Source: Prevotella sp. (GTDB lineage: Bacteria; Bacteroidota; Bacteroidia; Bacteroidales; Bacteroidaceae). From it: a stretch of 46,801 nt of DNA. Each line of letters opens with the position of its first letter. Position 1 is the first letter of the stretch. The stretch is taken from the NCBI GenBank assembly GCA_017445845.1, contig JAFSRY010000041.1, positions 1 to 46,801 on the forward strand, read 5' to 3'. A program made the translations under genes and the position numbers. Under the pieces are notes generated by a model. It was not told where the DNA came from and ran no database searches. It saw only the letters and a list, made by a program, of their open reading frames with translations. Shown here in pieces: positions 2,086 to 32,782 of this stretch.

Positions 2086-2151
2086 AGCAAATTAACTGAA
2101 TTTGGTCAGCAAATTAACTGAATTTGGTCGGTAAATTCAGTTAATTTGCTT
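2086..2151 (+). repeat. 22-bp repeat array A: two direct units plus one inverted, terminator-like
   Basis: Two identical, adjacent 22-bp units occupy 2086-2107 and 2108-2129 (core AGCAAATTAACTGAATTT, then GGTC). A third 22-bp block (2130-2151) is close to their reverse complement. The second unit (2108-2125) and the third (2133-2150) make a perfect 18-bp stem, followed by TTTTT. This should work as the terminator of the vWA gene. Confidence 0.85.
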
Positions 2152-2505
2152 TTTCGATTCTTAGACTACGTTTTCAGAGTTCTTCTTTTCGCCACTCTGA
2201 TTGATTTCTTTTGTTTTTGGCGTTAGTATCATTTTTTTGAGTTGTTTTATGTTTTTTAGTAAGAATTGTTTTTGTATTCTAATATTTTATTGTTAATTTT
2301 GCATCATCTTTGGTTCTTTTCTGATATTTCTATCAGGTTCGCCAAGTTATACATCGCGAGATGCGTTGCTTTTGAATAAGTTTGAAAACCAACAGTTTAT
2401 GTCTTTGCAGAGGAAAAAACAGTTTATACTTTCGTATGAATTACGCGCGTAATAGATATTTTTTGTTATCTTTGCAGACAGAACTGAAAGTATTGTAAAA
2501 GGAAA
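2152..2505 (+). promoter_or_regulatory. Upstream region of the 3-keto operon with two promoter candidates
   Basis: This T-rich 354-bp spacer holds no convincing gene. Its best promoter is TTTG (2271-2274), 19 nt, then TAATTTTG (2294-2301), which fits the Bacteroidota -33/-7 consensus and predicts a leader of about 200 nt. A second -7 box, TATCTTTG, is at 2467-2474. Just upstream of it is a perfect 12-bp palindrome TTACGCGCGTAA (2441-2452), placed where a repressor or activator would act. A long minus-strand reading frame enters this region but is taken to be antisense noise. Confidence 0.6.
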
Positions 2506-3582
2506 ATGATTAATGTAGCTATTATCGGCTTTGGCCGTATGGGGCGCTTCTATCTGGCAGAGTTTCAGAAGAGCGACCGCTACAGAGTGAGCTATATTTG
2601 TGATGTCGATGCCGACTGCCGCCAGTTGGCCCACAAACAAGCTCCCGAGGCCAAGGTTGTTGATGATACGGAGGAAATATACAAGGATGCGTCGGTCGAC
2701 GTCGTCACGCTGTGTGCCCTTGCCGGGTCGCGCAAGGAGCAGATACGGCGGGCGCTGGAGGCCGGCAAGCATGTCATTGCAGAGAAGCCCATTGCCGACA
2801 CCATCGAGAACGAATGGGAAATGGTGAGGCTGGCAGAAGGCTGCGACCGCTTTACTACGGTAAACATGTATCTGCTCAATTCGTGGTATCACAACGAGAT
2901 ACGGCGGTTTATCGACTCCGGCGAAATCGGAGAACTCGCCATCATCCGCATCTGCCACATGACACCGGGACTGGCTCCTGGCGAAGGCCACGAGACCGAA
3001 GGCCCCTGCTTCCACGACTGTGGTATGCACTATGTGAACCTGGCCCGATGGTATGCCCGCAGCGAATACCGCACCTGGCACGCCCAGGGTATGCGCATGT
3101 GGAGCTACAAGGACCCTTGGTGGATACAATGTCACGGAACGTTTCAGAACGGCATCGTCTACGACATCACGCAAGGCTTTGTCTACGGACAGATGTCGAA
3201 AGACCAGACCCACAACTCCTATGTCGACCTGATCGGCACGAAGGGCATCTGCCACATGACCCACAACTTCAAGACAGCCCATGTAGAACTGCGCGGTGTC
3301 AACGAGACACGCATTGAAGAGCGCCCCTTTGGCGGGAAAAACATCGACCGGCTCATCACCGAGATGGCCGACTCCATCGAAACAGGACAGCGCAGAAAAG
3401 ACATGCCGACATTCCGCGACTCGGCAGTGGCCTCGGAGATGGCATGGAAGATGCTGCAAGACTCTTACCACACAGAGCTGCCTGCCATCGGTGACCTGCA
3501 GACCCTGGAAGCCATCCGCGAACGGCGCCGAAACATGACCGACGGCTACGGCTTGCTGCCCAGAAACAACAAGAACGTATGA
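2506..3582 (+). CDS. Gfo/Idh/MocA family oxidoreductase (cytoplasmic)
   Basis: The 358-residue protein starts directly with a Rossmann fold (GFGRMG at 8-13) and has the family AEKP motif near 92-95, whose lysine is part of the active site. It has no signal peptide, unlike the next gene, so it is expected in the cytoplasm using NAD(P). Family members oxidise or reduce sugars and polyols, often at C3 or C2. As first gene of a five-gene run with a second oxidoreductase, two DUF1080 proteins and an isomerase, a role in making or reducing 3-keto sugars is likely (inference). The exact substrate is unknown. Confidence 0.9.
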   Translation: MINVAIIGFGRMGRFYLAEFQKSDRYRVSYICDVDADCRQLAHKQAPEAKVVDDTEEIYKDASVDVVTLCALAGSRKEQIRRALEAGKHVIAEKPIADTIENEWEMVRLAEGCDRFTTVNMYLLNSWYHNEIRRFIDSGEIGELAIIRICHMTPGLAPGEGHETEGPCFHDCGMHYVNLARWYARSEYRTWHAQGMRMWSYKDPWWIQCHGTFQNGIVYDITQGFVYGQMSKDQTHNSYVDLIGTKGICHMTHNFKTAHVELRGVNETRIEERPFGGKNIDRLITEMADSIETGQRRKDMPTFRDSAVASEMAWKMLQDSYHTELPAIGDLQTLEAIRERRRNMTDGYGLLPRNNKNV

Positions 3583-3661
3583 GCCGGAGGACAGGGAAAG
3601 AAACAACCGTTAAATCATATAATCGTAAATCTTAAACCATTAAACCCAAGAAACAACAATT

Positions 3662-5140
3662 ATGGCTGAAATTTCAAGAAGAGATTTCCTTAAGAGAGGA
3701 AGTGCCGCCGTTGCTGGAATGATTGTCGCTCCGACCATCGTCCCCGCTTCCGTGCTGGGCAAAGCCAAGGGCCACAAGGCTCCAAGTGACAAACTCAACA
3801 TCCTCGGTATCGGTATTGGCGGACGCGGTGCTGCCGACCTTCACGAGATGGAGACCGAGAACATCATCGGTCTGTGCGACTGCGACTGGAAGTATGCTAA
3901 GCACATCTTCGAAAAGTATCCCGATGCCAAGCGCTACAGCGAGTATCGTAAGATGTACGACGAGATGCTGCCGCAGGCCGATGCCGTCATGGTGGCTACT
4001 GCCGACCATACCCACGCCATCATCGCTGCCGAAGCCATCCAAGCCGGCAAACACGCCTATGTGGAAAAGCCCATGACACTCTACGCTTACGAGAGCCGTC
4101 TGCTCACCAAGTTGGCAGAAAAGCACAAGGTGGCCACCCAGCAAGGTAACCAGGGCGCCTCGCAGGCCGACACCCGCAAAGCCCTCAACTGGCTGTGGAA
4201 CGGTGAAATCGGTGAGGTCACCCGCATCGAAGCCTTCACCAACCGCCCCATCTGGCCGCAAGGAATGGAAGCTCCGAAAAACAAGCAGGCCATCCCCTCA
4301 ACGATGAACTGGGATGCCTTCATCGGCCCGGCTCCCATGCGCGATTACAACGAAGTCTATACTCCTTGGAACTTCCGCGGATGGTGGGACTTCGGATCTG
4401 GCGCCCTCGGCGACATGGCCAACCACATCCTCCAGGTAGCCTTCAAGGGCCTGAACCTCGGCTATCCCGAAGCTGTCATCGGCTCGTCCACTCAGCTCAT
4501 GAGCGACGCCTGCCCCAGCGCACAGAAGATTACCTATCGCTTCCCCGCCCGTCCCAACATGCCGAAGCTGGCTCTGCCTCCTTGCGAACTCACATGGTAC
4601 GACGGTGGTCTGCGTCCTAACCTGCCCTTCAACCTGCCCGAAGGCAAGAAGTTCGACGGCAACGGTGTCACCGTATTCTATGGAACCAAGGACATCATGG
4701 TTGTCGGTTGCTATGGCGACCGTCCGTTCCTCGTCTCTGGCCGCGAGCCCATCGTGCCCGAAATCGAGCGCGTCGTGAAGGTCAGCCACCAGCAAGACTG
4801 GATTCGCGCTTGTAAGGAAGACGCCGATGTCCGCGTGAAGTCAGCTTCAGACTTCAGCCTCGCCGGCCCGCTCAACGAAATGATTGTCATGGGTGTGGCT
4901 GCCGTACGTCTGCAGGAACTCGAGCAGTGGCTCAAGTGGGACGGCAAGAACATGCACTTCACCAACATCCCGAAGGATGCCAAGCTGCACGTCTCCAACG
5001 CCATCAAGTTCTCCATCCACGATGGTCACCCGTCGTTCTCGGCTGCCGACACCAACCTCGTCGACGCCAACCTCTATGCCGAGCGCCTCATCAAGCCCGT
5101 CTATCAGAACGGCTTCAAGCTGCCCGAAATGCCGATGTAA
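3662..5140 (+). CDS. Tat-exported Gfo/Idh/MocA family oxidoreductase
   Basis: The 492-residue protein begins with a twin-arginine signal (SRRDFLKRG at 5-13, followed by a hydrophobic stretch and VAPTIVPAS), so it is probably exported folded with its cofactor bound. The Rossmann motif GIGIGGRG lies near 49-56 and EKP near 135-137. The C-terminal half is the long form seen in periplasmic members of the family. It lies 79 bp after the first oxidoreductase and 18 bp before a DUF1080 gene. In the proposed scheme it would oxidise a glycoside to its 3-keto form in the periplasm (inference from context). Confidence 0.9.
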   Translation: MAEISRRDFLKRGSAAVAGMIVAPTIVPASVLGKAKGHKAPSDKLNILGIGIGGRGAADLHEMETENIIGLCDCDWKYAKHIFEKYPDAKRYSEYRKMYDEMLPQADAVMVATADHTHAIIAAEAIQAGKHAYVEKPMTLYAYESRLLTKLAEKHKVATQQGNQGASQADTRKALNWLWNGEIGEVTRIEAFTNRPIWPQGMEAPKNKQAIPSTMNWDAFIGPAPMRDYNEVYTPWNFRGWWDFGSGALGDMANHILQVAFKGLNLGYPEAVIGSSTQLMSDACPSAQKITYRFPARPNMPKLALPPCELTWYDGGLRPNLPFNLPEGKKFDGNGVTVFYGTKDIMVVGCYGDRPFLVSGREPIVPEIERVVKVSHQQDWIRACKEDADVRVKSASDFSLAGPLNEMIVMGVAAVRLQELEQWLKWDGKNMHFTNIPKDAKLHVSNAIKFSIHDGHPSFSAADTNLVDANLYAERLIKPVYQNGFKLPEMPM

Positions 5141-5158
5141 CATCAAACGACCAAGACA

Positions 5159-5968
5159 ATGAAAAAGACATTATTCGCAATCGCTGCGCTCGCCATGAGC
5201 ATGAGCATGAGCGCACAGAAAGTGACCACAGCCGAGCTCTATGTTTCGCAGGGCTTCCAGGGTCCCGAGTGTTATGAAAAGGTAACCGTTCCCGTCGACA
5301 AGAACGGCTACATGAGCATCTTCAACGGCAAGGACTTTGCCGGATGGCGCGGCTACGGCCTCACCAACGTCACCGACAAATGGGTCATCGAAGACGGATG
5401 CATCAAGTTCGACAGCAAGAAGCAGGGACGTGGCGGCGACATCATCTTCGCCCACAAGTTCAAGAACTTCGAGCTCGAGATGGAATGGAAAATATCTGAA
5501 GGTGGCAACTCCGGTATCTTCTACCTTGCACAGGAGACCTGCACTGCCGACGGCAAGAGCCTCGAGCCAATCTACATCTCCTGCCCCGAATGCCAAGTGC
5601 TCGACAACGAGAACCATCCCGATGCCAAGCTTGGTGTCGACGGAAACCGCAAGTCATCGTCGCTCTACGACATGATTCCCGCCAAGCCCCAGAACGCAAA
5701 GCCTTTCGGCGAATGGAACAAGGTGAAGATCCGCGTCAAGGACGGTGTCGTCACTCACTTCCAGAACGGCGTGCAGGTGCTGCAGTATACATTGTGGACT
5801 CCCGAATGGGTAGAGATGCTGCAGAAGAGCAAGTTCTCTCAGCAGAACTGGCCCGTCGCCTTCGAACTCCTCAAGGAGTGCGGTGGTCCCAACCACGAAG
5901 GCCTCATCGGTATGCAAGACCACGGTGACACCGTATGGTATCGCAATATTAAAGTAAAGGAACTATAA
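5159..5968 (+). CDS. DUF1080 (3-keto-disaccharide hydrolase domain) secreted protein
   Basis: The 269-residue protein has a signal peptide (about 1-20, ending SMSAQ). A DUF1080 jelly-roll domain fills the rest, with GWRGYG, GGNSGIFYLAQE, LGVDGNRKS and HEGLIGMQDHGD motifs. Members of this family cleave 3-keto-glycosides, by hydrolysis or elimination, after an oxidoreductase has introduced the keto group. It is a tandem paralog of the next gene, sharing all these motifs, but lacks its lipobox and is presumably soluble in the periplasm. The pair may differ in location or linkage preference. Confidence 0.88.
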   Translation: MKKTLFAIAALAMSMSMSAQKVTTAELYVSQGFQGPECYEKVTVPVDKNGYMSIFNGKDFAGWRGYGLTNVTDKWVIEDGCIKFDSKKQGRGGDIIFAHKFKNFELEMEWKISEGGNSGIFYLAQETCTADGKSLEPIYISCPECQVLDNENHPDAKLGVDGNRKSSSLYDMIPAKPQNAKPFGEWNKVKIRVKDGVVTHFQNGVQVLQYTLWTPEWVEMLQKSKFSQQNWPVAFELLKECGGPNHEGLIGMQDHGDTVWYRNIKVKEL

Positions 5969-6069
5969 TACATTTAGTCGTTTAGGAAATTAGTCGTTTG
6001 GCCGTTTAGGGTGGTTACATTCATCACCCCAATCTGCCAAACGACTAAACCATCAAACCACCAAGGAAT
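5969..6069. repeat. Intergenic inverted repeat of GTCGTTTGG words
   Basis: TTAGTCGTTTGG (5990-6001) is perfectly inverted as CCAAACGACTAA (6037-6048), giving a 12-bp stem with a 35-nt loop. The left side also carries the word TAGTCGTTT twice. Similar words (GGTCGTTTGATGGTTTG) occur at 12160-12177 upstream of aroK. This is probably a dispersed intergenic repeat; it has no T-run of a classic terminator. Confidence 0.5.
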
Positions 6070-6894
6070 ATGAAGAAAATATTAATGCTCGTTGCAGCCG
6101 TGGCCATGTTTGCCTCCTGCTGCAATAACAAGTGCAAGTGCACATGCAGCGACTGCAGCTGCTGTAAGGACGAAGCCGCTGCTGCCGTGGCAGAAGAGGC
6201 CGACGAAGAAGGCTTCGAAGCCATCTTCAACGGCGAGACCCTTGAGGGCTGGCGCGGTTATGGCATGGACGTTCCGCCTGCAAGCTGGAACGTAGAAGAC
6301 GGAGCCATCCACCTCGTAGGCTCAGGCACCGGCGAAGCCCAGGCTGAAGGCGGTGGCGACCTGCTCTACGACAAGAAACTCTCTAACTTCGAAATCCGCT
6401 TCGAATACAAAATCTCGAAGGGCGGTAACTCCGGCGTGTTCTACCTCGCCCAGGAAGCCAAGTCACAGAAAACGGGCGAACTGCTGCCCATCTGGCAGTC
6501 GGCCTCTGAATACCAAATCCTCGACAATGCCAACCACATCGACGCACAGCTCGGTGTCGACGGCAACCGTCAGGCCGCATCGCTCTACGACATGATACCT
6601 GCAAAGCCCCAGAACGCAAAACCCTACGGCGAATGGAACACCGCAGCCATCGTGGTCTTCAAGGGCACCGTCATCCACTATCAGAATGGCGAAAAAGTAT
6701 TGGAGTATCACCTCTGGACACCGAAATGGAAGGAAATGCTCGACGACAGCAAGTTTGCTGCCGACGGCGAATTCCCCGAAGCCTACAACCTGTTGCTCAA
6801 CATGGGTGGCGAGAACCACGAGGGATATATAGCCTTCCAGGATCATGGCGACGACGTATGGTATCGTAACATCCGTGTAAAGGTAATGGAGTAA
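6070..6894 (+). CDS. DUF1080 lipoprotein with a cysteine-rich N-terminal linker
   Basis: The 274-residue protein has a lipoprotein signal (hydrophobic stretch then FASC). The linker right after it is unusually cysteine-rich (CCNNKCKCTC then CSCC), followed by an acidic EEADEE stretch. The DUF1080 domain (about 50-274) carries GWRGYG, GGNSGVFYLAQE, LGVDGNRQ and HEGYIAFQDHGDD, matching the preceding gene. It is likely anchored in a membrane and acts on 3-keto-glycosides. The Cys cluster could bind metal or form disulfides; nothing in the family predicts it. Two bases separate it from the next gene. Confidence 0.88.
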   Translation: MKKILMLVAAVAMFASCCNNKCKCTCSDCSCCKDEAAAAVAEEADEEGFEAIFNGETLEGWRGYGMDVPPASWNVEDGAIHLVGSGTGEAQAEGGGDLLYDKKLSNFEIRFEYKISKGGNSGVFYLAQEAKSQKTGELLPIWQSASEYQILDNANHIDAQLGVDGNRQAASLYDMIPAKPQNAKPYGEWNTAAIVVFKGTVIHYQNGEKVLEYHLWTPKWKEMLDDSKFAADGEFPEAYNLLLNMGGENHEGYIAFQDHGDDVWYRNIRVKVME

Positions 6895-6896
6895 GT

Positions 6897-7793
6897 ATGA
6901 AGAGAATTCTTTTTATCGCAATGGCACTCGTCCTGGGTCTCACGGCTTGCGACGGTAGCAAGAAGAAGCCCGTCCAGAAGGAAATGGGCCTGCAACTCTA
7001 TTCCATCCGCGAACTCATCGGCAACGAAGAGAACTACGCCAAAAACCACGTCGAAGTCTTCAAACAACTCCGCGAGATGGGCTATACCTATGTAGAGGCT
7101 GCCCACTATAACGACGGAAAGTTCTACGGTGTCAGCCCCGAGCAGTATAAGCAAGACTGCGAAGAGGCCGGACTGAAACCCCTCTCCAGCCATGCCACCC
7201 GTGGTCTGAACGATGAAGAACTGGCCAACCACGACTTCACCGAGGCCCTCAAATGGTGGGAGCAGGCCATCGCCGCCCACAAGGCTGCCGGCATGGAGTA
7301 TATCGTCACTCCCGGCTGGGGCGTGCCCAAGAACCTGAAGGACGCCCAGACCATGTGCGACTATGCCAACGAAATCGGTAAGATGTGCCGCGAGGCCGGA
7401 CTGAAGTATGGCTACCACACCCACTCCCACGAATACCAGAAGGTGGAAGACCAGGTATGGATGGAATACTTCATGGAGAACACCGACCCCGAGAATATGT
7501 TCTGGCAGATGGACACCTATTGGGCTTGCTGGGGCAACCAGTTCCCCGTCCACTACTTCAAGAAGTATCCCGGACGCTTCAAGATGCTGCACATCAAGGA
7601 TAAGTATGAACTGGGCGAGAGCGGCTTCGTAGGCTTCGATGCCATCTTCGGAGCTGCCGACATCGCCGGCCTTGAGAACTTCATCGTAGAGATTGAAGAG
7701 ACCGACGGCCAGACCGACATCATGGAGGCTTGCCGCCGCAGTGCCGAATACATTCAGAACCTTCCTGCCGTGAAGGCCACCTACGCAAAGTAA
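6897..7793 (+). CDS. Sugar phosphate isomerase/epimerase-like lipoprotein (AP endonuclease 2 fold)
   Basis: The 298-residue protein has a lipoprotein signal (LTAC near 15-18) and then a xylose-isomerase-like TIM barrel. Metal-site features are visible: Glu in YVEAAHY, YGYHTHSHEYQ, and the late MLHIKDKYELG and FIVEIEET strands. Lipoprotein forms of this family recur beside DUF1080 and Gfo/Idh/MocA genes in gut Bacteroidales. They may isomerise or eliminate 3-keto sugars outside the cytoplasm. It is the last gene of the operon, with a strong terminator 27 bp downstream. Confidence 0.88.
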   Translation: MKRILFIAMALVLGLTACDGSKKKPVQKEMGLQLYSIRELIGNEENYAKNHVEVFKQLREMGYTYVEAAHYNDGKFYGVSPEQYKQDCEEAGLKPLSSHATRGLNDEELANHDFTEALKWWEQAIAAHKAAGMEYIVTPGWGVPKNLKDAQTMCDYANEIGKMCREAGLKYGYHTHSHEYQKVEDQVWMEYFMENTDPENMFWQMDTYWACWGNQFPVHYFKKYPGRFKMLHIKDKYELGESGFVGFDAIFGAADIAGLENFIVEIEETDGQTDIMEACRRSAEYIQNLPAVKATYAK

Positions 7794-7819
7794 TCCTTCT
7801 ATTGCATCATAACAGAAGA

Positions 7820-7855
7820 AAGGACAAGGTCAATCATAGACCTTGTCCTTCTTTT
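7820..7855 (+). terminator. Rho-independent terminator of the 3-keto operon
   Basis: AAGGACAAGGTC (7820-7831) pairs perfectly with GACCTTGTCCTT (7839-7850) across a 7-nt loop and is followed by CTTTT. It closes the five-gene operon and could also serve transcription arriving from the minus strand. Confidence 0.85.
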
Positions 7856-7889
7856 GTATCCATTATATACAAACTTCCTGAAAGTAAAT

Positions 7890-8042
7890 TATTGCTGTCT
7901 GGTAAAAACGGGGCGAACCAAAGGTCGACGGCCGAAGGGTAAGTCAAGGGCCAATGAGACCCCAAATCATTTTTAATCTTTTATAGGAGCAATATATACA
8001 GGGAATATCAAATATAAAAGTAAATTATACCGGACAGCAATA
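7890..8042. mobile_element. MITE-like element 1 with 9-bp target duplication
   Basis: The 153-bp element has inverted ends TATTGCTGTCTGGTA (7890-7904) and TACCGGACAGCAATA (8028-8042), with one mismatch in 15. It is flanked on both sides by AAAGTAAAT (7881-7889 and 8043-8051). No transposase fits inside. A third copy of AAAGTAAAT lies just inside the right end (8018-8026), which hints at a rearranged end. It lies between the converging ends of two operons. The termini match elements at 43450 and 46155. Confidence 0.75.
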
Positions 8043-9693: not shown

Positions 9694-11586
9694 CTATTCG
9701 AGATAGGTATATCCGTAAAGGCCCGAGCGGTAGTTGGAAAGGAACTCTTTGCCTTCTTCGAGCGATATCTTCCCTTGTTTAACGCTCTTGGTGACCCATA
9801 TCTCCAGTTGTCGTACCAGCTTTTTCGGATTAAACTGAACGTAGTCGAGTACTTCTTCCACCGTTTCTCCATCGATGATCTGGTCGATGTGATAGCTGCC
9901 GTCTTTTACGGAGATATGGACTGCATTGGTGTCGCCGAATAGGTTGTGCATGTCGCCGAGTATCTCCTGATAGGCTCCTACGAGGAAGACACCGAGATAA
10001 TACGGTTCGCTCTTGCGTAGGGCATGGACGGGCAGCACATGGGAGATGTGCCGGTTGGTCACGAAGTTGGCTATCTTTCCGTCAGAGTCGCAGGTGATGT
10101 CCTGCAGCGTTGCGTTGCGCGTGGGCCGTTCGTTGAGCCGCTGGATGGGCACGATGGGGAACAGTTGGTCGATGGCCCATGAGTCGGGCAGCGACTGGAA
10201 TAGCGAGAAGTTGCAGAAGTATTTGTCGGCCAGGAGTTTGTCGAGCGTGCGCAGTTCTTCGGGAATATGCTTGAGTGACTTGGCGATGGTATTGATTTCC
10301 CGGCATACGCTCCAGAACATCGACTCTATCTCGGCACGCGTCTTCAGGTCGATGAGACCGTGTGAGAACAGGTCGAGGGCTTCCTCGCGGATCTGTTCTG
10401 CATCGTGCCAGTCTTCGAGCATGGTGCGTTGGTTCAGGTTGTCCCATATCTCATAGAGGTCTTTGACAAGCTGATGGTCATTGTCCTTTGCTTCAAACTC
10501 CTCCGGCATCTCGGGCAGCGACGCCGTCTCCAGCACATCAATGACGAGCACAGAGTGGTGTGCGGTGAGCGACCGTCCGCTCTCCGTGATGATGTTGGGA
10601 TGCGGGATGTCGTTCTTGTCGGCGGCATCGACAAACTGATAGATACAGTCGTTGACATATTCCTGGATGCTGTAGTTGACGGAGCTCTCGCTCGACGGCG
10701 AGCGTGTGCCGTCGTAGTCGACGCCGAGACCACCGCCACAATCGACGAAATCGACATTGTAGCCCAACTTATGCAACTGCACATAGAACTGTGCGGCCTC
10801 ACGCAAGGCCGTCTGGATGCGGCGTATCTTCGTAATCTGCGAACCGATATGGAAGTGGATGAGTCGCAACGAGTCGTGGAGTCCTTTTTCGTCAAGTATC
10901 TTCAGTGCCTGCAGGAGTTCCGACGAGGTCAGTCCGAACTTCGAGGCATCGCCGCCACTCTCTTCCCATTTTCCCGAGCCTGACGATGCGAGCTTGATGC
11001 GGATGCCGAGGTTGGGTGTCACGTTGAGCTTCTTGGCTGCCCGTGCGATGATGTTGAGTTCGTTGAGCTTCTCGACGACGATAAAGATGCGCTTGCCCAT
11101 CTTCTGTGCCAACAGTGCCAGTTCGATATAGCTCTGGTCTTTATAGCCGTTGCATACGATGAGGGAGTCGCTCTGACACTGCACGGCGATGACGGCATGG
11201 AGTTCGGGTTTCGAGCCTGCCTCGAGTCCGAGGTTGAACTTCCTTCCGTGCGAGATGATTTCCTCTACGACGGGTTGCATCTGGTTGACCTTGATGGGAT
11301 AGATGACAAAGTTCTCACCTTTGTAGTCATACTCTTCGGCAGCCTGTTTGAAGCACGAAGCCGTCTTCTCGATGCGGTTGTCGAGGATGTCGGTGAAACG
11401 AAGGAGTACGGGTGTCGTCACGTCGCGCAGGGCGAGTTCGTCCATCACTTCGTGCAGGTCGATTTGCGTATCGTCCTTGCAGGGTGTCACGAAAATGTTG
11501 CCTTCTTCGTTGATACCGAAGTAAGAAGTGCCCCAGCCGTTGATGTTATACAGCTCACGGGCGTCGTCGATGGTCCACTTTTTCAT
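9694..11586 (-). CDS. speA: Biosynthetic arginine decarboxylase
   Basis: The 630-residue length and sequence fit SpeA, the PLP-dependent enzyme that decarboxylates arginine to agmatine, the first step of polyamine synthesis. The N-terminal GWGTSYFGINEEGNI motif, the PLP lysine in YPIKVNQMQ (Lys 99), the glycine-rich VDCGGGLGVDYDG and ITESGRSLTAHHSVL are all present. It should be cytoplasmic. It follows aroK by 36 bp and precedes the ECF sigma gene by 5 bp, in a closely packed minus-strand run. Confidence 0.97.
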   Translation of the reverse strand: MKKWTIDDARELYNINGWGTSYFGINEEGNIFVTPCKDDTQIDLHEVMDELALRDVTTPVLLRFTDILDNRIEKTASCFKQAAEEYDYKGENFVIYPIKVNQMQPVVEEIISHGRKFNLGLEAGSKPELHAVIAVQCQSDSLIVCNGYKDQSYIELALLAQKMGKRIFIVVEKLNELNIIARAAKKLNVTPNLGIRIKLASSGSGKWEESGGDASKFGLTSSELLQALKILDEKGLHDSLRLIHFHIGSQITKIRRIQTALREAAQFYVQLHKLGYNVDFVDCGGGLGVDYDGTRSPSSESSVNYSIQEYVNDCIYQFVDAADKNDIPHPNIITESGRSLTAHHSVLVIDVLETASLPEMPEEFEAKDNDHQLVKDLYEIWDNLNQRTMLEDWHDAEQIREEALDLFSHGLIDLKTRAEIESMFWSVCREINTIAKSLKHIPEELRTLDKLLADKYFCNFSLFQSLPDSWAIDQLFPIVPIQRLNERPTRNATLQDITCDSDGKIANFVTNRHISHVLPVHALRKSEPYYLGVFLVGAYQEILGDMHNLFGDTNAVHISVKDGSYHIDQIIDGETVEEVLDYVQFNPKKLVRQLEIWVTKSVKQGKISLEEGKEFLSNYRSGLYGYTYLE

Positions 11587-15377: not shown

Positions 15378-15487
15378 TGATCATCCGATTATCAGTGCTT
15401 GATCATCCGGTTATCAGTGCTTGATCATCCTATTACCTGTGTGAGATAATCCCATTACCTGTGTGAGATAATCCTATTACCTGTGCG
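15378..15487. repeat. 22-bp repeat array B: five units
   Basis: Five adjacent 22-bp units run 15378-15399, 15400-15421, 15422-15443, 15444-15465 and 15466-15487. The first two share TGATCATCCGRTTATCAG. The last two share AGATAATCCYATTACCTG, and the third is a hybrid of both types. Partial units flank the array (TTATCA before, TGATAA after). The array lies in a 554-bp gene-free region (15178-15731) between two divergent operons. That region otherwise holds the Nudix promoter, the GH2 promoter and a direct repeat. Confidence 0.85.
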
Positions 15488-15596
15488 TGATAAGGGTGGC
15501 GAAGGAAAGAAGGGTGGGTGGAAATACATTTTTCCGACTGACACGACGGGCCTCTCCGGACATAAAGACGCCTTTTCCGATGATTTCTCGATTTTT

Positions 15597-15673
15597 TGAC
15601 AAAAAGTTAGATTTTGCTTCGATGAAATCGTGCATTTTTGGACAAAATTACAGATTTTATGGACAAAATTACA
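15597..15673 (+). promoter_or_regulatory. Direct repeats upstream of the PUL promoter
   Basis: GGACAAAATTACA occurs at 15640-15652 and again at 15661-15673, a 21-bp spacing that puts both copies on the same DNA face. A weaker copy (TGACAAAAAGTTAGATTTT) begins at 15597, about two spacings upstream. The cluster ends about 25 bp before the -7 box at 15696, a position suited to an activator such as the HTCS encoded at 34728. The link to that regulator is inference. Confidence 0.5.
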
Positions 15674-15731: not shown

Positions 15732-17591
15732 ATGACAACATTCAGAACCCTGTTGACAGCTGTCTTAGCTACAGTAACCCTCTCATCCTATGGTGAAAAC
15801 ATTCCCCGTAGCGAGTATCCGCGTCCACAGTTTGAACGCACAGAATGGCAGTGTCTTAATGGCACTTGGACCTATCAGTTTGACTTCGGCAGAAGCGGAA
15901 AAGAGTCGCAATTGCAGAAGTCGAAAGGCTTCGCCGACAACATCACGGTGCCTTTCTGCCCAGAAAGTCCGTTGTCGGGCATCGGACACACCGACTTTAT
16001 CCCCGCCCTCTGGTACCACCGCACGCTGGAAGTACCCACCGCCTGGGACGGACAACATATCCTCCTTCACTTCGCCGGAGTAGATTATCGTTCAACGATA
16101 TTTATCGATGGAATCGAGGTTTTTTGTCACTATGGCGGTGCCGCATCGTTTGCCGTCGACATTACGAGATACGTTAAACCCGGCAAGAAACACGACCTCG
16201 TGGTGTTCGCCGAAGACGACGTCCGCTCACGCCTGCAACCCGGCGGAAAGCAGTCGCGCCGGCTCCACAGCTACGAATGCTTCTATACCCGTGTGACAGG
16301 CATTTGGGCTCCCGTATGGATGGAACCCGTCGGAAAGAACGGACTGAAAGACGTCCGCATCACCCCAGACCTCGATAACAGCATGTTCATTTTCGAACCA
16401 GAGTTCCTGGAGACTGACGTCGAAGCCTCGTTCACCGTCATCGTCAAGGACGGACAGAAGGTGGTAGGGCAGAAAACGGTCAACGCCTCCAACTCCGCCT
16501 TCGTCGCCGTTCCCATCAAGAAAGTAAAGACATGGAGCCCCGAGAGTCCTTTCCTCTATGATGTAGAATACAAAGTCGTCGGTGCCGACGGCAAGACCAT
16601 CGACGACGTGCGTGCCTATGCGGGAATGAGAAAAGTGGAACTCCGCAAGGGCGTGTTCTACCTGAACAACCAACCCTACTACCAGCGCCTCGTCCTCGAC
16701 CAGGGATACTATCCCGACGGACAGTGGACAGCTCCCACCGACGAAGCCCTCAGACGCGACATCGTACTGGCAAAAGAGGCCGGTTTCAACGGAGCCCGCC
16801 TCCATCAGAAGGTCTTCGACCAGCGCTTCTTCTACTGGGCCGACCACCTGGGCTATCTCACCTGGGGCGAGTCGCCCTCGTGGGAGATGGACTGGACCAA
16901 CCAGATTGCCGCCCGCAACATGATTGCCGAGTGGGAAGAATGCATACAGCGCGATTATAGCGTGCCCTCCATCGTGGCGTGGTCGCCGCTGAACGAGACC
17001 TGGATGGACGATGTCGACGGACAGCGTGCCCGCCTGACCAACGACCTCTACTTCATCACCCGCCGCTTCGACCGCACACGGCCTGTCGTCACCACCTCGG
17101 GCGGCTATCATGAAGGATTCACCGACATCTATGCCGAGCATACCTATGTGCAAGATCCCGTCGCCCTCTATCACCAGCTGGAAATGAAACCCGACGGCAG
17201 CGTCTACAACCACTTCCCAGACAAGAGTGCGCCCTGGAAGGGTGAGGCCTATATGATCGATGAATTCGGCGGCATTCGCTGGGTGCAGCAGATGAAAGCC
17301 AAGGAGGTGACCACCGCCGATGAGTTCTGGGGATATGGCAAAGACCCGCAGTCGCTCGACGAATACTACCAGCGGTTGGAAGAGCAGGTCAACGTCATCC
17401 TGAGCATACCCTATATCACTGGTTTCTGCTACACACAGATTGTCGACGTTGAACTTGAGAAGAACGGCATCTACACCTACGACCGCGAGCGCAAGTTCGA
17501 CATGGAACGCATCCATCGCATCTTCACCAAGAGCCGCGAGCAGGCCACCGAGGAAGTAGACCAGATGCTGAAAGAAAGAGATCATCAATAG
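15732..17591 (+). CDS. Secreted glycoside hydrolase family 2 enzyme
   Basis: The 619-residue protein has a signal peptide (about 1-21). A GH2 sugar-binding sandwich (about 25-190, with LNGTWTYQFDFG and ALWYHRTLEVP) leads into an immunoglobulin-like domain and a TIM barrel (about 300-600). The acid/base Glu is in WSPLNETWM (about residue 422) and the probable nucleophile is in MIDEFGG (about 511). GH2 enzymes remove terminal beta-galactose, beta-glucuronate, beta-mannose or related sugars; the specificity cannot be told here. It is the first gene of the plus-strand PUL and has its own promoter. Confidence 0.9.
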   Translation: MTTFRTLLTAVLATVTLSSYGENIPRSEYPRPQFERTEWQCLNGTWTYQFDFGRSGKESQLQKSKGFADNITVPFCPESPLSGIGHTDFIPALWYHRTLEVPTAWDGQHILLHFAGVDYRSTIFIDGIEVFCHYGGAASFAVDITRYVKPGKKHDLVVFAEDDVRSRLQPGGKQSRRLHSYECFYTRVTGIWAPVWMEPVGKNGLKDVRITPDLDNSMFIFEPEFLETDVEASFTVIVKDGQKVVGQKTVNASNSAFVAVPIKKVKTWSPESPFLYDVEYKVVGADGKTIDDVRAYAGMRKVELRKGVFYLNNQPYYQRLVLDQGYYPDGQWTAPTDEALRRDIVLAKEAGFNGARLHQKVFDQRFFYWADHLGYLTWGESPSWEMDWTNQIAARNMIAEWEECIQRDYSVPSIVAWSPLNETWMDDVDGQRARLTNDLYFITRRFDRTRPVVTTSGGYHEGFTDIYAEHTYVQDPVALYHQLEMKPDGSVYNHFPDKSAPWKGEAYMIDEFGGIRWVQQMKAKEVTTADEFWGYGKDPQSLDEYYQRLEEQVNVILSIPYITGFCYTQIVDVELEKNGIYTYDRERKFDMERIHRIFTKSREQATEEVDQMLKERDHQ

Positions 17592-25608: not shown

Positions 25609-25622
25609 AATGAATAATTTGT

Positions 25623-25716
25623 AATGAGTAGTTAGTAATTATGATTTCCTCTGCCGGCGTGCTCTGCCATCAGGAACGCAAACGGCAAATGTAATCATAA
25701 TTACTAATTACTCATT
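25623..25716. repeat. Hairpin repeat of ATGAGTAATTAGTAATTA type
   Basis: Left arm 25623-25646 and right arm 25693-25716 are inverted copies matching at 23 of 24 positions (core AGTAATTATGATT against AATCATAATTACT). The interior GCCG/CGGC and GCGT/ACGC pairs can extend the stem. The spacer separates the surface lipoprotein gene from the first sialidase-like gene. Related half-copies lie at 28506-28530 and 34691-34709. Confidence 0.8.
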
Positions 25717-25742
25717 TCTAATTTTATTAATTAACACCTGCT

Positions 25743-27620: not shown

Positions 27621-27622
27621 TT

Positions 27623-28501
27623 ATGAAGAAAGCTATCGTCACCCTACTGCTGGTCTGCAACGTCCTGTTTGCAGCAGCCATCGAAAAGAACCCTCCGAAG
27701 CCGACCGCCATCATCAACATCTGGGAGAACATGACACCGCCCACCGATAATGGCGAGACAGGACCCGAAGTCGACCACAAAGGGCTCTACGTCAGTCACG
27801 TTGTCACGCCGACGCTCACCGTCTATGTCCCGAAAGACCCAAAGAAGCGCACGGGGAAAGCCGTTATCGCCTGTCCCGGCGGTGGATATAATGTGTGCTG
27901 GGTGGGAACGGAAGGCCATCCCTTTGCCCAGTGGTTCATGGAACAGGGCTTGACGTTTGCCGTATTGAAATACCGGCTGCCCAACGGCCATCATACCGTA
28001 CCATTGGAAGACTTCCAGCGCGCCATCACCATCATGCGCGAACATGCCGGTGAATGGGGAGGCTACAATCTGGTGGGCGTGATGGGCGGCAGTGCCGGAG
28101 GCCATCTGGCATCGACCGCCGCCACCCATTACAAAGATGCCATTACCCGTCCCGACTTCCAAATCCTCTGCTATCCCGTCGTTTCCTTCCAAGCACCCTA
28201 CGATGGCGAAAGCCTCCATGCGCTGCTCGGAAAGAGCGACACACCCGGGCTTCGTGCCTATTATAGTAATGAGATGCAAGTGACCGTTGACACCCCACCC
28301 GCCTTCATTCTTCATGCAGCCGACGATGACGACGTGTCGGCCGTCCATTCTACCAACTATGCCGAAGCGCTGATGGAAAAAGGTGTCATCGTGTCACTGC
28401 ATCTATACCCAACCGGCGGCCACGGCTGCAACACCAGCCCATCATGGAAATATGACAAAGAATATAAAACCGACCTTGCAAAGTTCCTGAAAGAGCTATA
28501 A
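27623..28501 (+). CDS. Secreted alpha/beta-hydrolase, probable carbohydrate esterase
   Basis: The 292-residue protein has a signal peptide (about 1-19) and an alpha/beta-hydrolase fold. The oxyanion motif is CPGGGYN (84-90), the nucleophile Ser is in MGGSAGGH (Ser 157), the Asp lies in HAADDDD (about 234-237), and the His in PTGGHGCN (His 267). Such proteins in PULs remove acetyl or aromatic esters from polysaccharides; acetyl-xylan or pectin esterase activity is plausible but unproven. It sits 2 bp after the first sialidase-like gene, so they are co-translated or co-transcribed. Confidence 0.88.
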   Translation: MKKAIVTLLLVCNVLFAAAIEKNPPKPTAIINIWENMTPPTDNGETGPEVDHKGLYVSHVVTPTLTVYVPKDPKKRTGKAVIACPGGGYNVCWVGTEGHPFAQWFMEQGLTFAVLKYRLPNGHHTVPLEDFQRAITIMREHAGEWGGYNLVGVMGGSAGGHLASTAATHYKDAITRPDFQILCYPVVSFQAPYDGESLHALLGKSDTPGLRAYYSNEMQVTVDTPPAFILHAADDDDVSAVHSTNYAEALMEKGVIVSLHLYPTGGHGCNTSPSWKYDKEYKTDLAKFLKEL

Positions 28502-28505
28502 AAAA

Positions 28506-28621
28506 AATGAGTAATTAGAATTAGCAATTACCCCCTACCGGCTGGCACTCCCCACCTTGGGCGATAAGCGAGGAGGGAGCGTTGTGGGGAGCACAGCGAC
28601 GGAGGGGAGGTCGGGAGGGGT
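28506..28621. repeat. Composite intergenic repeats between esterase and paralog 2
   Basis: The spacer begins with an ATGAGTAATTAG half-copy (28506-28530). A GC-rich stretch follows, with CTCCCCAC (28548-28555) inverted as GTGGGGAG (28584-28591). It ends with GGGGAGGTCGGGAGGGGT (28604-28621), which recurs with one change inside the next gene at 30381-30398. Confidence 0.65.
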
Positions 28622-28640
28622 CTTTAATTTCAGATAGATT

Positions 28641-30500
28641 ATGAAACGAATACTACTTATCCTCCTTATTGCCACGACGGCACTCACCGTCAGTGCCGCG
28701 CGTCATGAACCCTATACCACGTCACGCATCTTCTGGGACATGGGCAGCCGACAGACCCTTTTCCAGAGCGCACTCTATGCCCGCATGAAAGAGCTGCAGG
28801 ATGGCCGCCTCATCGCCGTAACCAACATCTCCGACAACATCGTCGTCTCTTTCAGCAGTAACAAGGGCCTTAGCTGGACGACACCTGCCACCATCGCCAC
28901 CCACCCCAACATGCAGCATCTCTTCGATGCCGAAGTCGTCCAACTCAGCGATGGCACCATCATCATACCTTATAACATCGGTACCAACCAACCCTACAGC
29001 GATGACCGCCACTACGGCGTGCAACTGAACATCAGCACCGACAACGGCCACTCGTGGGGCAACCCCATCACCGTCTATACCGCCGGCCCCGACTTCGGCA
29101 CCGGCTGTTGGGAGCCTGCCATCCTCGAGCTGCCCTCCGGTGAGCTCCACCTGTATTTCTCCGACGAGAGCCCGTTTCCCGGAAATAACAACGACCAGTG
29201 CATACAGCTGACACGCTCGTTCGACAAGGGGGGCACATGGAGCAATGTTGAAACCATCTCCTACCGACCGGGAGCCCGCGACGGAATGCCCGTGCCCGTC
29301 ATCATCGGCGACAGCATCATCGTCACCATCGAAGACAGCCAGTGGCCCGGCGAGCTGACCTTCGTGCCGGTCACCCTTCGCTCCTCCATTGAAGAAAACT
29401 GGCGGGGCATCACCATCCCTGCCACCAGCAACCGCCGCAACCAAGTCATCGACTACAGCTGGACTCCCCGCACCTGGGGCGGCGCCCCTTACCTTTGCGT
29501 GCTGCCGTGGGGCGAAACCGTCCTCTCCCGACAGGCCTACCACGAGAGTGGCAGCTATGACATCATGAACCAGTATGTCTACATCGGCGACGAACAGGCT
29601 CGAGGGTTCAAAGCCATTTCGCAACCCTTCCCCGACAACGCCGAGAGCAAGGTGTCCGTAGAATGGAACTCCATTGCCGTTGTCGACACCGGTGTCGTCA
29701 TCGCACTGGGCGGCGTCGGTGCCAAGGGAGCCGTCAACCGACATGTCGACATTGTCCGCGGCTACCCCATGCGCGAATTCAAAGCCTGGTACGGCACGCC
29801 TACCGTCGACGGCACCATCGGCTCGGGCGAGTACCATACGAAGCAGGCCACACAGGTGAAGATGGGCACCAACACCATCGGCGAACGCGTCTATGCCGAC
29901 TTCTCCTACGACGAGCAGAACCTCTACTTCGCCATCCGCGTCTACGACAGCACCCCCAACAATGAAGGCAGTTCCGTTGATTGCGTCCATCTGCTGCTCG
30001 ACCCCCACAACCTCTGTGAGACCGTGCCCGCAGCCGGCGTCATCGACATCACCCTACGCACCGACGGCACCTATCTCTTCCAGGAAGGCCGCAACTACCT
30101 GTGGACAACCTTCGAGCCTGCCGCCCCCCTCGACATGCAGGTCAACCTCGCATCGAGGTTTTACACCATCGAGGCCGCCATCCCCTGGAAGGCCCTCGGC
30201 CATGAGGCACCGCCCCAGCAGCAGCGCATGGGTATGGCCATCGAGGTGCAGGACCGTCGGGAAGGCAAGACCCTCGTCGAAACCATGCCCGACGTGAAGC
30301 GCGGACAGTCATGGACCTACATGACCTTCCGGCTTGAAGACCACGAGCTCGGCATCCAACAAACAAACCGCTTCCCCTCAGGGGAGGACGGGAGGGGTAC
30401 GCTCTCCACTCGCGATTCCTACGACCTGCAGGGCCGCCGCATCGGTGACGACTACCGCGGGATAGCCATTCAGAAGGGCCGGAAGATTATCAAGAGGTAG
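28641..30500 (+). CDS. Sialidase-fold (BNR) protein with CBM9-like domain, paralog 2
   Basis: The 619-residue protein has a signal peptide (about 1-20), then the same opening as paralogs 1 and 3 (EPYTTSRIFWD). Asp-box-like motifs include FSSNKGLSW, STDNGHSW and SFDKGGTW. WEPAILELPSGELHLYF and the propeller continue to about 380. A CBM9-like domain follows (about 390-570, VDGTIGSGEYHTKQAT). The tail YDLQGRRIGDDYRG, with GRKIIKR, matches the shared sorting-like end. Key residues differ from paralog 1, so the three may have different activities. Confidence 0.85.
   Translation: MKRILLILLIATTALTVSAARHEPYTTSRIFWDMGSRQTLFQSALYARMKELQDGRLIAVTNISDNIVVSFSSNKGLSWTTPATIATHPNMQHLFDAEVVQLSDGTIIIPYNIGTNQPYSDDRHYGVQLNISTDNGHSWGNPITVYTAGPDFGTGCWEPAILELPSGELHLYFSDESPFPGNNNDQCIQLTRSFDKGGTWSNVETISYRPGARDGMPVPVIIGDSIIVTIEDSQWPGELTFVPVTLRSSIEENWRGITIPATSNRRNQVIDYSWTPRTWGGAPYLCVLPWGETVLSRQAYHESGSYDIMNQYVYIGDEQARGFKAISQPFPDNAESKVSVEWNSIAVVDTGVVIALGGVGAKGAVNRHVDIVRGYPMREFKAWYGTPTVDGTIGSGEYHTKQATQVKMGTNTIGERVYADFSYDEQNLYFAIRVYDSTPNNEGSSVDCVHLLLDPHNLCETVPAAGVIDITLRTDGTYLFQEGRNYLWTTFEPAAPLDMQVNLASRFYTIEAAIPWKALGHEAPPQQQRMGMAIEVQDRREGKTLVETMPDVKRGQSWTYMTFRLEDHELGIQQTNRFPSGEDGRGTLSTRDSYDLQGRRIGDDYRGIAIQKGRKIIKR
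30381..30398 (+). repeat. REP-like word inside paralog 2, shared with the intergenic spacer
   Basis: GGGGAGGACGGGAGGGGT is 17/18 identical to 28604-28621, which lies outside any gene. Here it encodes part of the linker SGEDGRGT, just before the conserved tail YDLQGRR. An intergenic repeat appears to have entered the coding sequence in frame. Confidence 0.65.
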
Positions 30501-30546
30501 CGAAAACATACATTCGGCATCTGTACATGCCCATGTGTAAAGTCGT

Positions 30547-30634
30547 GACCAAAGGCTGGTCACAATGAGACCAAAGGCTGGTCACAACGAGACCAAAGGC
30601 TGGTCACAATGAGACCAAAGGCTGGTCACAAATC
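30547..30634. repeat. 22-bp repeat array C: four palindromic units
   Basis: Four adjacent 22-bp units span 30547-30568, 30569-30590, 30591-30612 and 30613-30634. Each contains GACCAAAGGCTGGTCACAA, in which GACCA and TGGTC can form a small hairpin. The copies are nearly identical except near their ends. They fill much of the 205-bp spacer before the next gene (30706), which has no clear promoter. Confidence 0.9.
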
Positions 30635-30705
30635 CATCTCTATGCATAGGGCATGAGAAAAGGCCGTTCCGATAGTTTAACAAGTTAATTTTTCATCAGA
30701 TACTT

Positions 30706-32550
30706 ATGAAGAGAATACTATTCATCTTGGCAGTCCTGATGGTGACGACGACAGGTTTTGCCAAGCGCAAGCAATGGACAGAGAAACAGGCTTGGAAGTG
30801 GCAGGAGCAGGTGGGAGTCATCAAAGGCTTCAACGAACCCTATCCTGCCTACCCGGGTCAGACCAACCGCGACATCCTGCAGAAAGCGGCTTCGCTGGGC
30901 TTCAACAGCGTCCGCTTCTGGATACAAGGCAACAACACCGAAGAGCGTGTGGCGTATATCCAGAAGATGATCGACGATGCGGCAGCCTGCGGCATGACGG
31001 TGTCGCCGGTGATAGCCTTCGGCGAACGCTATTATTACCGCAAGCACAAAAAGGACGAACAAGAGGAAATGCGCATGGCTTACGAAAAAGCCGTCAGAGA
31101 GGTGGTGCGGCACTTCGCCAAGGAAAGCCGCATCGTCTTCTGGGACCTCTGGAACGAGCCGCGCTTTGAAGACCGCGAGGACACCTACCAACAGATAGAC
31201 ATCATCGAAGAGATGGTGCACTGGTGCTGGGAAGAAAACCTCTCGCAGCCCATCACCTCCTCCATTATATGGGCCACCATCAACACCGACAACAAGGCCC
31301 TGAAACGCACCTCGCAGGTGGAAGCCCTCATGGACATCCATAACTTCCACTCCTACGACTGTGCCCTGAACTTCGGTCATAACATCTACGAGATGCTCGA
31401 CTACATCAAGTCTATCAGCGACCGCCCGATGGTGGCCACGGAGTGTCTGACCCGTACCAACGGCTCGGGCCTGGCACGCACCTTTGCCGCCTTCGCAAAA
31501 TACAAGGTCAACTTCTACATCTGGGGACTCTTCATCAACGACCGCAACTGGGAAGCCCGTTGGGACTGCTCCACCTACGACCCCTACGACCCAATGTTCC
31601 ACAATGTGCTCTACAGCGACGGCGACATGTATGATGCCCGCGAGATTGAACTCCTGCGCAACTATCATTTCGCCCAACCCGGCGAAGAGACAGACCCGGG
31701 ACTTGAAATCACCGACCGATGGAGCCACGAACGGGCCTGGCGATGGATGGTGACAGGTCCGCTGATGGGGCTTGAACTGAAGGGCAACAACCCCTCTCTG
31801 CCACCTATGCAGGGCAGCAATGCCGTACGCGTGAAATTAGACTATGCCGCCTGGAAGAAAGACAAGAAGGCATTCTTCGAACAGTTGGAGACCCTGCTGA
31901 AGCAGGCCGAAGCGCTGGGGGCATCGGTCGTCCCGACATTAGTCAACGATGCCGATGTGTCGGTCAATGCCGAACAGTTGGGCAAGTATGTGGGCGATGT
32001 CATCGGACACTACTATTGCGACACCCGCATCAAAGCCTGGAACCTCTACGACCGGCCGGGACTCACCCATGGCGATACGGCAACACTCATGCAGCTGGTA
32101 AGAACGCTCTTCCGCTACGCCCGCAACCAGTTTGCCAACCAACCGCTCACGATGACACCCGTCGTCGGTGTGAAACCCTTCGACAAGAACTTCGACCCGT
32201 GGAAGGCCATGATACACGGACACACCGCCGGCTGGGACCGACTGACCTACAGCGGTGGCAGCTCTGCCGACTTGGTCTATCTGATTTGGAGCCTCAGCGA
32301 CGTGACGTCTTTTGCCACCGAGATGCCGCCGGCAGAGACACGCTGGCTCACCAGCATCTGCTATCGTTTCGGCCGACCCATCTTCTGTATGTCGTGGGCA
32401 GCCACGAAAGATAACGACGTGCAGACCACGCTGAACCATTTTGCCGACTTCCATGTCTTCTGGTTTGCCGACACCCTGCTACCCGACCTCTATCCACAGT
32501 TCCGCTTCCGACAGAGCAGCACCCAGCGACAGATTACGGAAGGAATGTAA
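30706..32550 (+). CDS. Two-barrel clan-A glycoside hydrolase with a degenerate second barrel
   Basis: The 614-residue protein has a signal peptide (about 1-19). The first TIM barrel (about 25-330) carries the clan GH-A acid/base motif WDLWNEPRF (Glu about 151) and a probable nucleophile in VATECLTR (Glu about 246). The second half (about 345-610) repeats the pattern, but the corresponding position reads WNLYDRPG near 446, lacking the catalytic NE. It is probably a non-catalytic second barrel. The first domain may be an endo- or exo-glycosidase; the CAZy family was not identified. Confidence 0.8.
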   Translation: MKRILFILAVLMVTTTGFAKRKQWTEKQAWKWQEQVGVIKGFNEPYPAYPGQTNRDILQKAASLGFNSVRFWIQGNNTEERVAYIQKMIDDAAACGMTVSPVIAFGERYYYRKHKKDEQEEMRMAYEKAVREVVRHFAKESRIVFWDLWNEPRFEDREDTYQQIDIIEEMVHWCWEENLSQPITSSIIWATINTDNKALKRTSQVEALMDIHNFHSYDCALNFGHNIYEMLDYIKSISDRPMVATECLTRTNGSGLARTFAAFAKYKVNFYIWGLFINDRNWEARWDCSTYDPYDPMFHNVLYSDGDMYDAREIELLRNYHFAQPGEETDPGLEITDRWSHERAWRWMVTGPLMGLELKGNNPSLPPMQGSNAVRVKLDYAAWKKDKKAFFEQLETLLKQAEALGASVVPTLVNDADVSVNAEQLGKYVGDVIGHYYCDTRIKAWNLYDRPGLTHGDTATLMQLVRTLFRYARNQFANQPLTMTPVVGVKPFDKNFDPWKAMIHGHTAGWDRLTYSGGSSADLVYLIWSLSDVTSFATEMPPAETRWLTSICYRFGRPIFCMSWAATKDNDVQTTLNHFADFHVFWFADTLLPDLYPQFRFRQSSTQRQITEGM

Positions 32551-32634
32551 AAAGGAGAAAAAGAAAAAATACGACGAGTGAGGGTGATTTCAATTTTTCA
32601 CCTTTTAAACTTCTCACTTTTCCACATTTTTAAT

Positions 32635-32642
32635 TACCTTTG
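32635..32642 (+). promoter_or_regulatory. Promoter -7 box upstream of sialidase-like paralog 3
   Basis: TACCTTTG fits the -7 consensus and lies 143 bp before the gene at 32786. The gap would give a leader containing a 25-codon ORF and two 22-bp repeats. No strong -33 TTTG is visible at the standard spacing. Confidence 0.55.
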
Positions 32643-32653
32643 CAAATTAGAAT

Positions 32654-32731
32654 ATGGACCGACGACATTGCCGACTGGCTGGAATCGATTGTGAAAGGGT
32701 GAAAAAGAAAACAAGTAGACAAGTTAAATGA
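32654..32731 (+). other. Possible short upstream ORF
   Basis: A 25-codon ORF runs from the ATG at 32654 to TGA (32729-32731) in the proposed leader of paralog 3. It is basic near the end (RVKKKTSRQVK) and resembles nothing known. It may be a leader peptide, a relic or chance, with no conservation evidence available. Confidence 0.2.
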
Positions 32732-32738
32732 TAAAAGC

Positions 32739-32782
32739 AATAACTCGTCAACTAAAAAGTAATAACTCATCAACTAAAAAAA
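32739..32782. repeat. 22-bp repeat array D: two units
   Basis: Two adjacent 22-bp units (32739-32760 and 32761-32782) share AATAACTCRTCAACTAAAAA. They end 3 bp before the ATG of sialidase-like paralog 3 (32786), so they sit in its leader immediately before the start codon. Confidence 0.85.

Follow-up and report, generated by a model that had tools for sequence, protein, structure and literature searches.

A constant 22-bp step in intergenic tandem arrays of unrelated sequence in Prevotella

Intergenic regions of Prevotella carry short tandem arrays that belong to many sequence families and have one repeat step, 22 bp, in common. Bacterial repeat families are usually defined by sequence, whereas the property shared here is the step. 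The window considered in this work, that is, the whole stretch of 46,801 bp that was analyzed, comes from a Prevotella metagenome assembly (G000; 2,457,347 bases in 103 contigs, 75.5% complete) and contains four arrays with this period. The existence of the repeat class itself, Prevotella intergenic arrays at a 22-bp step, is well supported, and the data suggest that the spacing, more than the letters, is kept or read; from these patterns we infer a protein that would read the arrays and a function for them. No description of such a class was found in a search of the Prevotella literature, which missed most subscription journals, and the accessible part of PMC5771137 (BMC Genomics) makes no mention of 22-bp repeats.

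Period, spacing and symmetry of the arrays

Tandem arrays were detected with Tandem Repeats Finder (TRF), intergenic sequence was defined by a purpose-written codon-hexamer gene caller, and unit families were grouped by cyclic, strand-independent distance. The period spectrum covers nine Prevotella or mostly Prevotellaceae samples. The source genome was scanned over 446,801 bp, and a set of 80 named loci amounts to 1.445 Mb, nearly all from Prevotellaceae, with a few Bacteroides, Phocaeicola and unclassified Bacteroidales included. Seven genomes, E. coli and two each from the same order, the class and the phylum, served as the outside comparison (700 kb in total, of which about 72 kb is intergenic).

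In the source genome, 24 of the 34 intergenic arrays have a period of 22, two of 44, three of 21 and none of 23, and none of the 14 coding arrays is at 22. The named loci gave 39/121 intergenic and 0/31 coding arrays at 22, and the genome G016 gave 9/27 intergenic arrays together with one coding array, as found also in G197. Of 242 intergenic arrays, 79 repeat strongly at a shorter period (3-9, 14 or 16 bp) and were not counted; 83 of the remaining 163 were at 22, and the 80 of these with a 22-letter consensus form 42 sequence families. The neighboring periods are far less populated: 11 arrays at 21 (8 families among 8 counted), 7 at 23 (4 families), 3 at 20 and 2 at 24. Heptamer and other short-unit arrays make up part of the signal at periods 14 and 21 in Prevotella, and of the 11 arrays at 44, 8 have a repeat at 22 as well. 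None of the 17 intergenic arrays in the outside genomes is at 22. The share at 22 among arrays not built of shorter units reaches 26/28 in the source genome, 16/16 in G353, 4/4 in G345, 11/14 in G016 and 5/8 in G210; in an 80-kb sample of the 99% complete G003, 4/6 intergenic arrays have this period. The arrays are short, with a median of 3 units and a maximum of 6.8. The first-pass annotation of this DNA, which proposed a process holding the length across unrelated sequences and would have ascribed the pattern to chance had 22 been no commoner than 20-24, is thus borne out on this point.

That annotation placed 22-bp units of unrelated sequence at four sites, and TRF recovers period-22 arrays at all four (2086, 15378, 30547 and 32733), their units falling into four families. 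Three of the arrays are built of palindromes and define the families called F1, F2 and F3. The F1 array (30547..30631, + strand; 3.9 copies by TRF, three spacings of 22) comprises four GACCA-n5-TGGTC dyads with 7-bp linkers. The F2 array (15378..15493, no strand assigned; two overlapping TRF rows, four spacings of 22) has five units around the dyad GATAATC-C-GATTATC and sits in a divergent intergenic region. The F3 array (2086..2148, no strand assigned; period 22, 2.9 copies, spacings 22 and 22) consists of three units, each a 15-bp AT-rich dyad AAATT-n5-AATTT followed by a 7-bp linker; it had been described as two direct copies plus an inverted one, an impression that goes back to the near-palindromic units, and its three dyads lie 22 bp apart.

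The spacing within these families was measured at loci preselected by similarity, with a search for single palindromes that is blind to the distance between them up to 60 bp. Of 158 distances between neighboring palindromes, 154 are 22 bp and the other four 44 bp, which again speaks for a length-holding process. By family, the 22-bp spacing accounts for 54/54 in F1, 48/50 in F2 (two at 44; this set takes in two distantly related arrays, L034 and L042, absent from the F2 search listing of the source genome), 9/9 for F3 in the source genome and 43/45 for F3 elsewhere (two at 44), where 19 of the 20 loci yielded a palindrome run. With shuffled motifs, 0.2-2.4 pairs turned up per shuffle. The letters are far less constant: the 7-bp linkers diverge from the consensus by 13% in F1, 39% in F2 and 36% in F3, and 153 units differ from their family consensuses at 521 positions, a comparison that covers units at spacings of 22 or 44 only. 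Arms, centers and linkers thus all vary, while the spacing is constant.

The same step emerges without reference to any family. A scan for 15-bp dyads of any sequence (at least 6/7 pairs) in 428 kb of intergenic DNA from Prevotella and relatives counted 50, 68, 22, 44 and 24 pairs at distances of 11, 22, 33, 44 and 55 bp, against 7/6, 10/9, 6/8, 11/11 and 12/5 one base to either side; 66 kb from elsewhere showed no peaks (1, 1, 2, 1 and 0). The 11-bp peak is not a separate finding, because it arises from symmetric units repeated at 22 bp. Consensus stems of at least 5 pairs occur in 58% of the 26 arrays at 22 bp in the source genome versus 11% in shuffles, and in 0/13 of its arrays with periods of 12-30 other than 21 and 22; when all copies were scored, 69 intergenic arrays had a mean of 5.2/8 pairs versus 4.5 in column shuffles. 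Imperfect palindromes of about 15-19 bp, each with a short linker, make up most of the units in the source genome and a part of them in other species.

Dispersal and genomic placement

Three of the four arrays (2086, 15378 and 30547) are not local events; each is one copy of a family scattered over the genome. Elsewhere in the source genome there are 16 places for F1, 18 for F2 and 13 for F3 (the weakest with E of about 1e-3), so that each family occupies 14-19 places; overlapping rows count as one place, and weak matches with E up to 1e-3 are kept. Searches for F2 in 39 relatives and for F1 in 59 other genomes of the phylum gave no match. F3 is present, independently of matches to the gene next to it, in at least 18 of the 298 other Prevotella genomes searched, and 20 of its places from 17 genomes were read. 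No array lies in the intergenic region of the relative G345 that matches the F1 site at 30547. Behind the gene at 1372-2031, 14/14 relatives lack the F3 array, and one of them has a different 22-bp array in that position (L231).

Matches to F2 and F3 end within about 35 bases of the array. Seven of the 17 F1 arrays are followed by a common noncoding tail (L157:943-1345, L154:955-1385, L155, L004-L006 and L008), several of them near contig ends; an eighth place has the first 55 bases of the tail, the other nine have no tail match, and the last 141 bases alone occur once, on C16, with no array in the match. In G247, two different 22-bp arrays stand back to back (L239, 438-722). Intergenic regions with several arrays are about as frequent as expected by chance in the source genome (4 versus 4.3) and overall (10 versus 8.4), with a slight excess in seven other Prevotella samples (5 versus 2.0, P 0.04).

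Among 23 F1 and F2 loci of known context, 12 lie between convergent, 9 between co-directional and 2 between divergent genes, where 13% convergent and 34% divergent would be expected by length (binomial P = 8e-6 and 0.006); this set omits two F2 rows repeating others and four F1 rows at contig ends, and leaves out eight of the 19 F2 places and one of the 17 F1 places. Only a weak bias is left when all samples are taken together (25 convergent versus 17 expected, P 0.03; 14 divergent versus 23, P 0.01). Within co-directional regions the arrays have no preferred orientation, three F1 arrays being in the same and three in the opposite direction to the genes, and one and two, respectively, for F2. 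Of 86 F3 unit instances, picked on outer pairs only and a few of them off-register, 92% have a complementary innermost pair in the dyad and 81% a complementary second pair, which is C-G (49) or A-T (21). Since such central pairs are not needed for an RNA loop, this argues for an element acting at the DNA level.

The genes beside the arrays are ordinary. A scan of 29 neighboring proteins, 26 of them beside F1, F2 or F3 arrays, gave Pfam matches for all except four, with domains of phenylalanyl-tRNA synthetase, triosephosphate isomerase, EF-G, MutL, UvrC, glycoside hydrolases and others.

Possible origins of the step

Where the step comes from can be approached through copy number. Of the near-identical duplications (fewer than 2.3 copies, at least 90% match), 3/27 are at 22 and the rest are spread widely (14/59 at 22 when no match limit is applied), whereas the fraction at 22 is 33/51 for 2.3-2.9 copies, 40/52 for 2.9-3.9 and 30/35 for 3.9 or more, and 44/62 among diverged arrays (below 80% match). 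As two-copy duplications have no bias to 22 and multi-copy arrays do, the length would be set not by slippage, one of the mechanisms originally proposed, but by retention or propagation. An explanation by chance, or by slippage during replication that favors 22 bp, is accordingly very improbable: it could accommodate the array at 32733, with only two copies and of an octamer-rich class, but it is already contradicted by the copy-number data, and the outside genomes lack the period.

The reading that we prefer, with a probability of about 0.5, is that the arrays are short mobile elements acting at the DNA level, similar to the repetitive extragenic palindromic (REP) elements and their relatives, the bacterial interspersed mosaic elements (BIMEs), or to the BrickBuilt repeats of Porphyromonas gingivalis, and that their geometry is read by a protein. 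The arrays would be copied as units into new intergenic sites; one or a few related DNA-binding proteins of two-fold symmetry would read or bridge adjacent dyads at the fixed 22-bp step, in the manner of a REP-type transposase or of a protein with an architectural or insulating role at the ends of genes, and arrays with another step would be neither kept nor propagated. Protein binding to one DNA face had been suggested at the outset; a dyad-reading protein remains the best fit, while the single face is only approximate, 22 bp being about 2.1 turns of B-DNA. The recombinase proposed along with it has found no backing, with no match to a Y1 transposase in the 75.5% complete source genome or among the scanned neighbor proteins, although other transposase and recombinase families were not searched. 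A bolder version is unlikely, in which a geometry-reading protein recognizes any dyad at a 22-bp step and has it copied to new intergenic sites and maintained, so that dozens of families without common sequence would obey a single length rule and serve gene ends across the genus as an architectural or insulator code. The 42 families at one step, and the recovery of that step by the sequence-blind dyad scan, raise a question that can be tested in the laboratory, namely whether a protein counts 22 bp; the scan also offers a sequence-independent route to the annotation of this repeat class.

Several observations weigh against the preferred reading. The step is not absolute, as 10 F1 copies have a longer GACC-GGTC element, of 27 bp, either before or after the core array; the spacing search detects a change of length between palindromes and not inside one, and indels are rare in these elements in any case (4 gap openings versus 325 mismatches in the F1 tail, summed over pairs). 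The symmetry is uneven: consensus stems of at least 5 pairs are found in only 35% of 43 arrays at 22 bp from the named loci and in 0/12 of those from G016, where 62% of 13 arrays of other periods have them, although several G016 arrays exceed their own shuffles when all copies are scored. Some Prevotella genomes have little of a peak at 22 (G009 1/6, G324 1/4, G120 2/6), and the 80 named loci taken alone have no orientation bias (7 convergent, 20 co-directional, 9 divergent and 8 at edges). The scans point to no specific protein that reads the arrays, and among the 29 scanned neighbor proteins no two share a family, apart from a paralogous pair of BNR/CBM9 proteins in the window. Finally, the source genome is an incomplete metagenome assembly, of which only about one fifth was read.

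Among the competing explanations, frozen descent deserves the closest attention and is nevertheless doubtful. It holds that the arrays derive from one ancestral array by drift and homogenization within arrays, the step being merely inherited under no present constraint. The arrays of the source genome form 15 families at a threshold of 5 mismatches per 22 and only 9 at 7 mismatches, a level that shuffled pairs reach in 0.25% of cases, so that some families are distantly related; the rarity of gaps in the F1 tail also fits. Descent alone, on the other hand, has to face the 42 families that persist at the relaxed threshold, non-palindromic ones included, and linkers that diverge by up to 39% without a single change of length in 158 spacings. 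A role at the RNA level, in which convergent genes would be separated by 3' hairpins or by terminators working in both directions, is quite unlikely. The preference of F1 and F2 for convergent regions and the folding of two arrays would suit it: the one at 2086 forms a 19-pair stem with a T tail, and the one at 30547 folds better than shuffles (z score -3.2). The array at 15378, however, folds no better than shuffles (z -0.45), F1 and F2 lack an orientation bias, the complementary dyad centers of F3 are superfluous in an RNA loop, and the 22-bp step is left unexplained.

The shared F1 tail, of which only the last 141 bases occur without an array in the match (once, on C16), would suit a miniature inverted-repeat transposable element (MITE) with an internal minisatellite, as in BrickBuilt, which the arrays also resemble in copy number and intergenic placement according to the available part of PMC4596501. 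Such an origin is improbable, given the nine F1 places with no tail match, the ends of the F2 and F3 matches close to the array and the many families that have the step and no sequence in common. Iteron-like sites for plasmid-type initiators, perhaps acting as decoys, have in their favor that R6K and pPS10 have iterons of 22 bp and that initiators bind iterons cooperatively, with a helical-phase requirement (as given in the accessible text of PMC4980987). They can hardly account for the arrays, since Rep_3 was found in one of seven genomes searched (G003) and not in the 75.5% complete source genome, a search of 72,556 plasmid records with F1 and F2 gave no match (F3 was not searched there), and one of 50,697 phage records with F2 gave none (F1 and F3 were not searched there).

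Viral carriage was considered and rejected. Some environmental viral contigs, among them L286, L294, L295 and L296, do contain tandem GACC/GGTC palindromes at a 22-bp step: such arrays were found in 29 contigs, 13 of them flagged as tandem and 6 with loops alike in at least 5/7 letters. In a variable-step control, in which 80 of at least 120 stretches were analyzed, 16 had like loops and only one of these was at step 22, so the step is not favored in viral contigs. F3 was not found in viral contigs.

Other features of the window and comparison with known systems

The fourth array of the window (32733..32780, + strand; two 22-bp units of an octamer type, 2.2 copies by TRF) precedes the ATG at 32786 and has no clear palindrome and no folding. 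Its weak matches lie in octamer-rich stretches (e.g. AAGTAGAC), mostly directly before genes, for which TRF reports periods of 8, 14, 16, 21 or 22; given this variety, its period of 22 may be a coincidence, and the array is assigned to an octamer-based class and not to the palindromic one. Units 2 and 3 of the F3 array form a terminator-like 19-pair stem followed by TTTT (2108..2150, + strand). The terminator role assigned earlier to this array is plausible as a local one, the RNA fold of 2080-2160 having a z score of -7.7; a stem scan found one stem versus a shuffle mean of 0.6, which by that scan is within chance. The only Rfam match above the gathering score in the window is a tRNA at 43848-43921, with no structured-RNA family at the arrays. 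Heptamer arrays (TAATTAC/TAATTAG) stand directly before genes at 25609-25723 and 34691-34724, and a near-perfect two-copy repeat of 21 bp (ATTTTATGGACAAAATTACAG) lies at 15634-15673, in the space separating the F2 array from the gene at 15732. The segment 28641-34657, where a GH5-like protein is encoded between two BNR-repeat/CBM9 proteins, is probably a carbohydrate-use locus, and further homologous copies of these genes occur in G345 and G210. The product of 9694-11586, recognized by eye as a putative arginine decarboxylase, has its nearest named relative in an uncultured Prevotellaceae (94%).

Several known systems combine short repeats with a protein that recognizes them. Centromere arrays of the ParR/parC type have 11-bp repeats whose comb is read by a symmetric protein, and they mark a single partition locus, whereas the Prevotella arrays occupy many chromosomal places. 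Iterons of R6K and pPS10 are likewise tandem 22-bp binding sites with cooperative, phase-dependent binding, but they belong to a plasmid origin and its Rep protein, and the Prevotella arrays are chromosome-wide and fall into many sequence families (PMC4980987, in the part available); neither a Rep_3 match in the source genome nor a plasmid match for F1 or F2 links the two.

REP elements are also small dispersed palindromes that are hypothesized to be mobile. As the consulted portion of PMC3733652 describes them, they are 20-40 bp long with a GTAG or CGTC end, the GTAG types being associated with genes for REP-associated tyrosine transposases (RAYTs), and no fixed tandem step is named there; the Prevotella dyads measure about 15-19 bp. 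Inspected by eye, the consensuses of F1-F3 contain neither GTAG nor CGTC on either strand, CGTC being found on one strand in 7/54 F1 linkers (ACGACGA, TCGTCGT). A Y1 (RAYT) transposase is present in G016, G197 and G345 and was found neither in the source genome, G353 and G210, all three incomplete, nor in the 99% complete G003; as all four of these genomes have 22-bp arrays, a RAYT may be dispensable.

The nearest described system is BrickBuilt, although BrickBuilt, REP elements and iterons each differ from the arrays in at least one defining feature tested here. According to the available part of PMC4596501, BrickBuilt of P. gingivalis, also of the Bacteroidales, consists of intergenic tandem direct repeats of nearly the same size, with 19 dispersed copies and a species-restricted sequence. 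Its unit is 23 nt in 1 to 22.8 copies, as compared with 22 bp in about 2-7 copies in Prevotella, where the spacing in F1-F3 is 22 bp in 154 of 158 cases and twice that in the other four. The same source reports tandem repeats of 41, 23 and 22 nt for P. gingivalis W83, with no locations in that part of the text; a 41-bp intergenic tandem class, with six arrays in 100 kb, occurs in G197 (L266-L270) and has the size of the 41-nt repeats. BrickBuilt is, moreover, one sequence family, with a leader and a tail that have IS5-type terminal repeats (PMC4596501, in the same part), whereas the Prevotella arrays comprise many families with one step.

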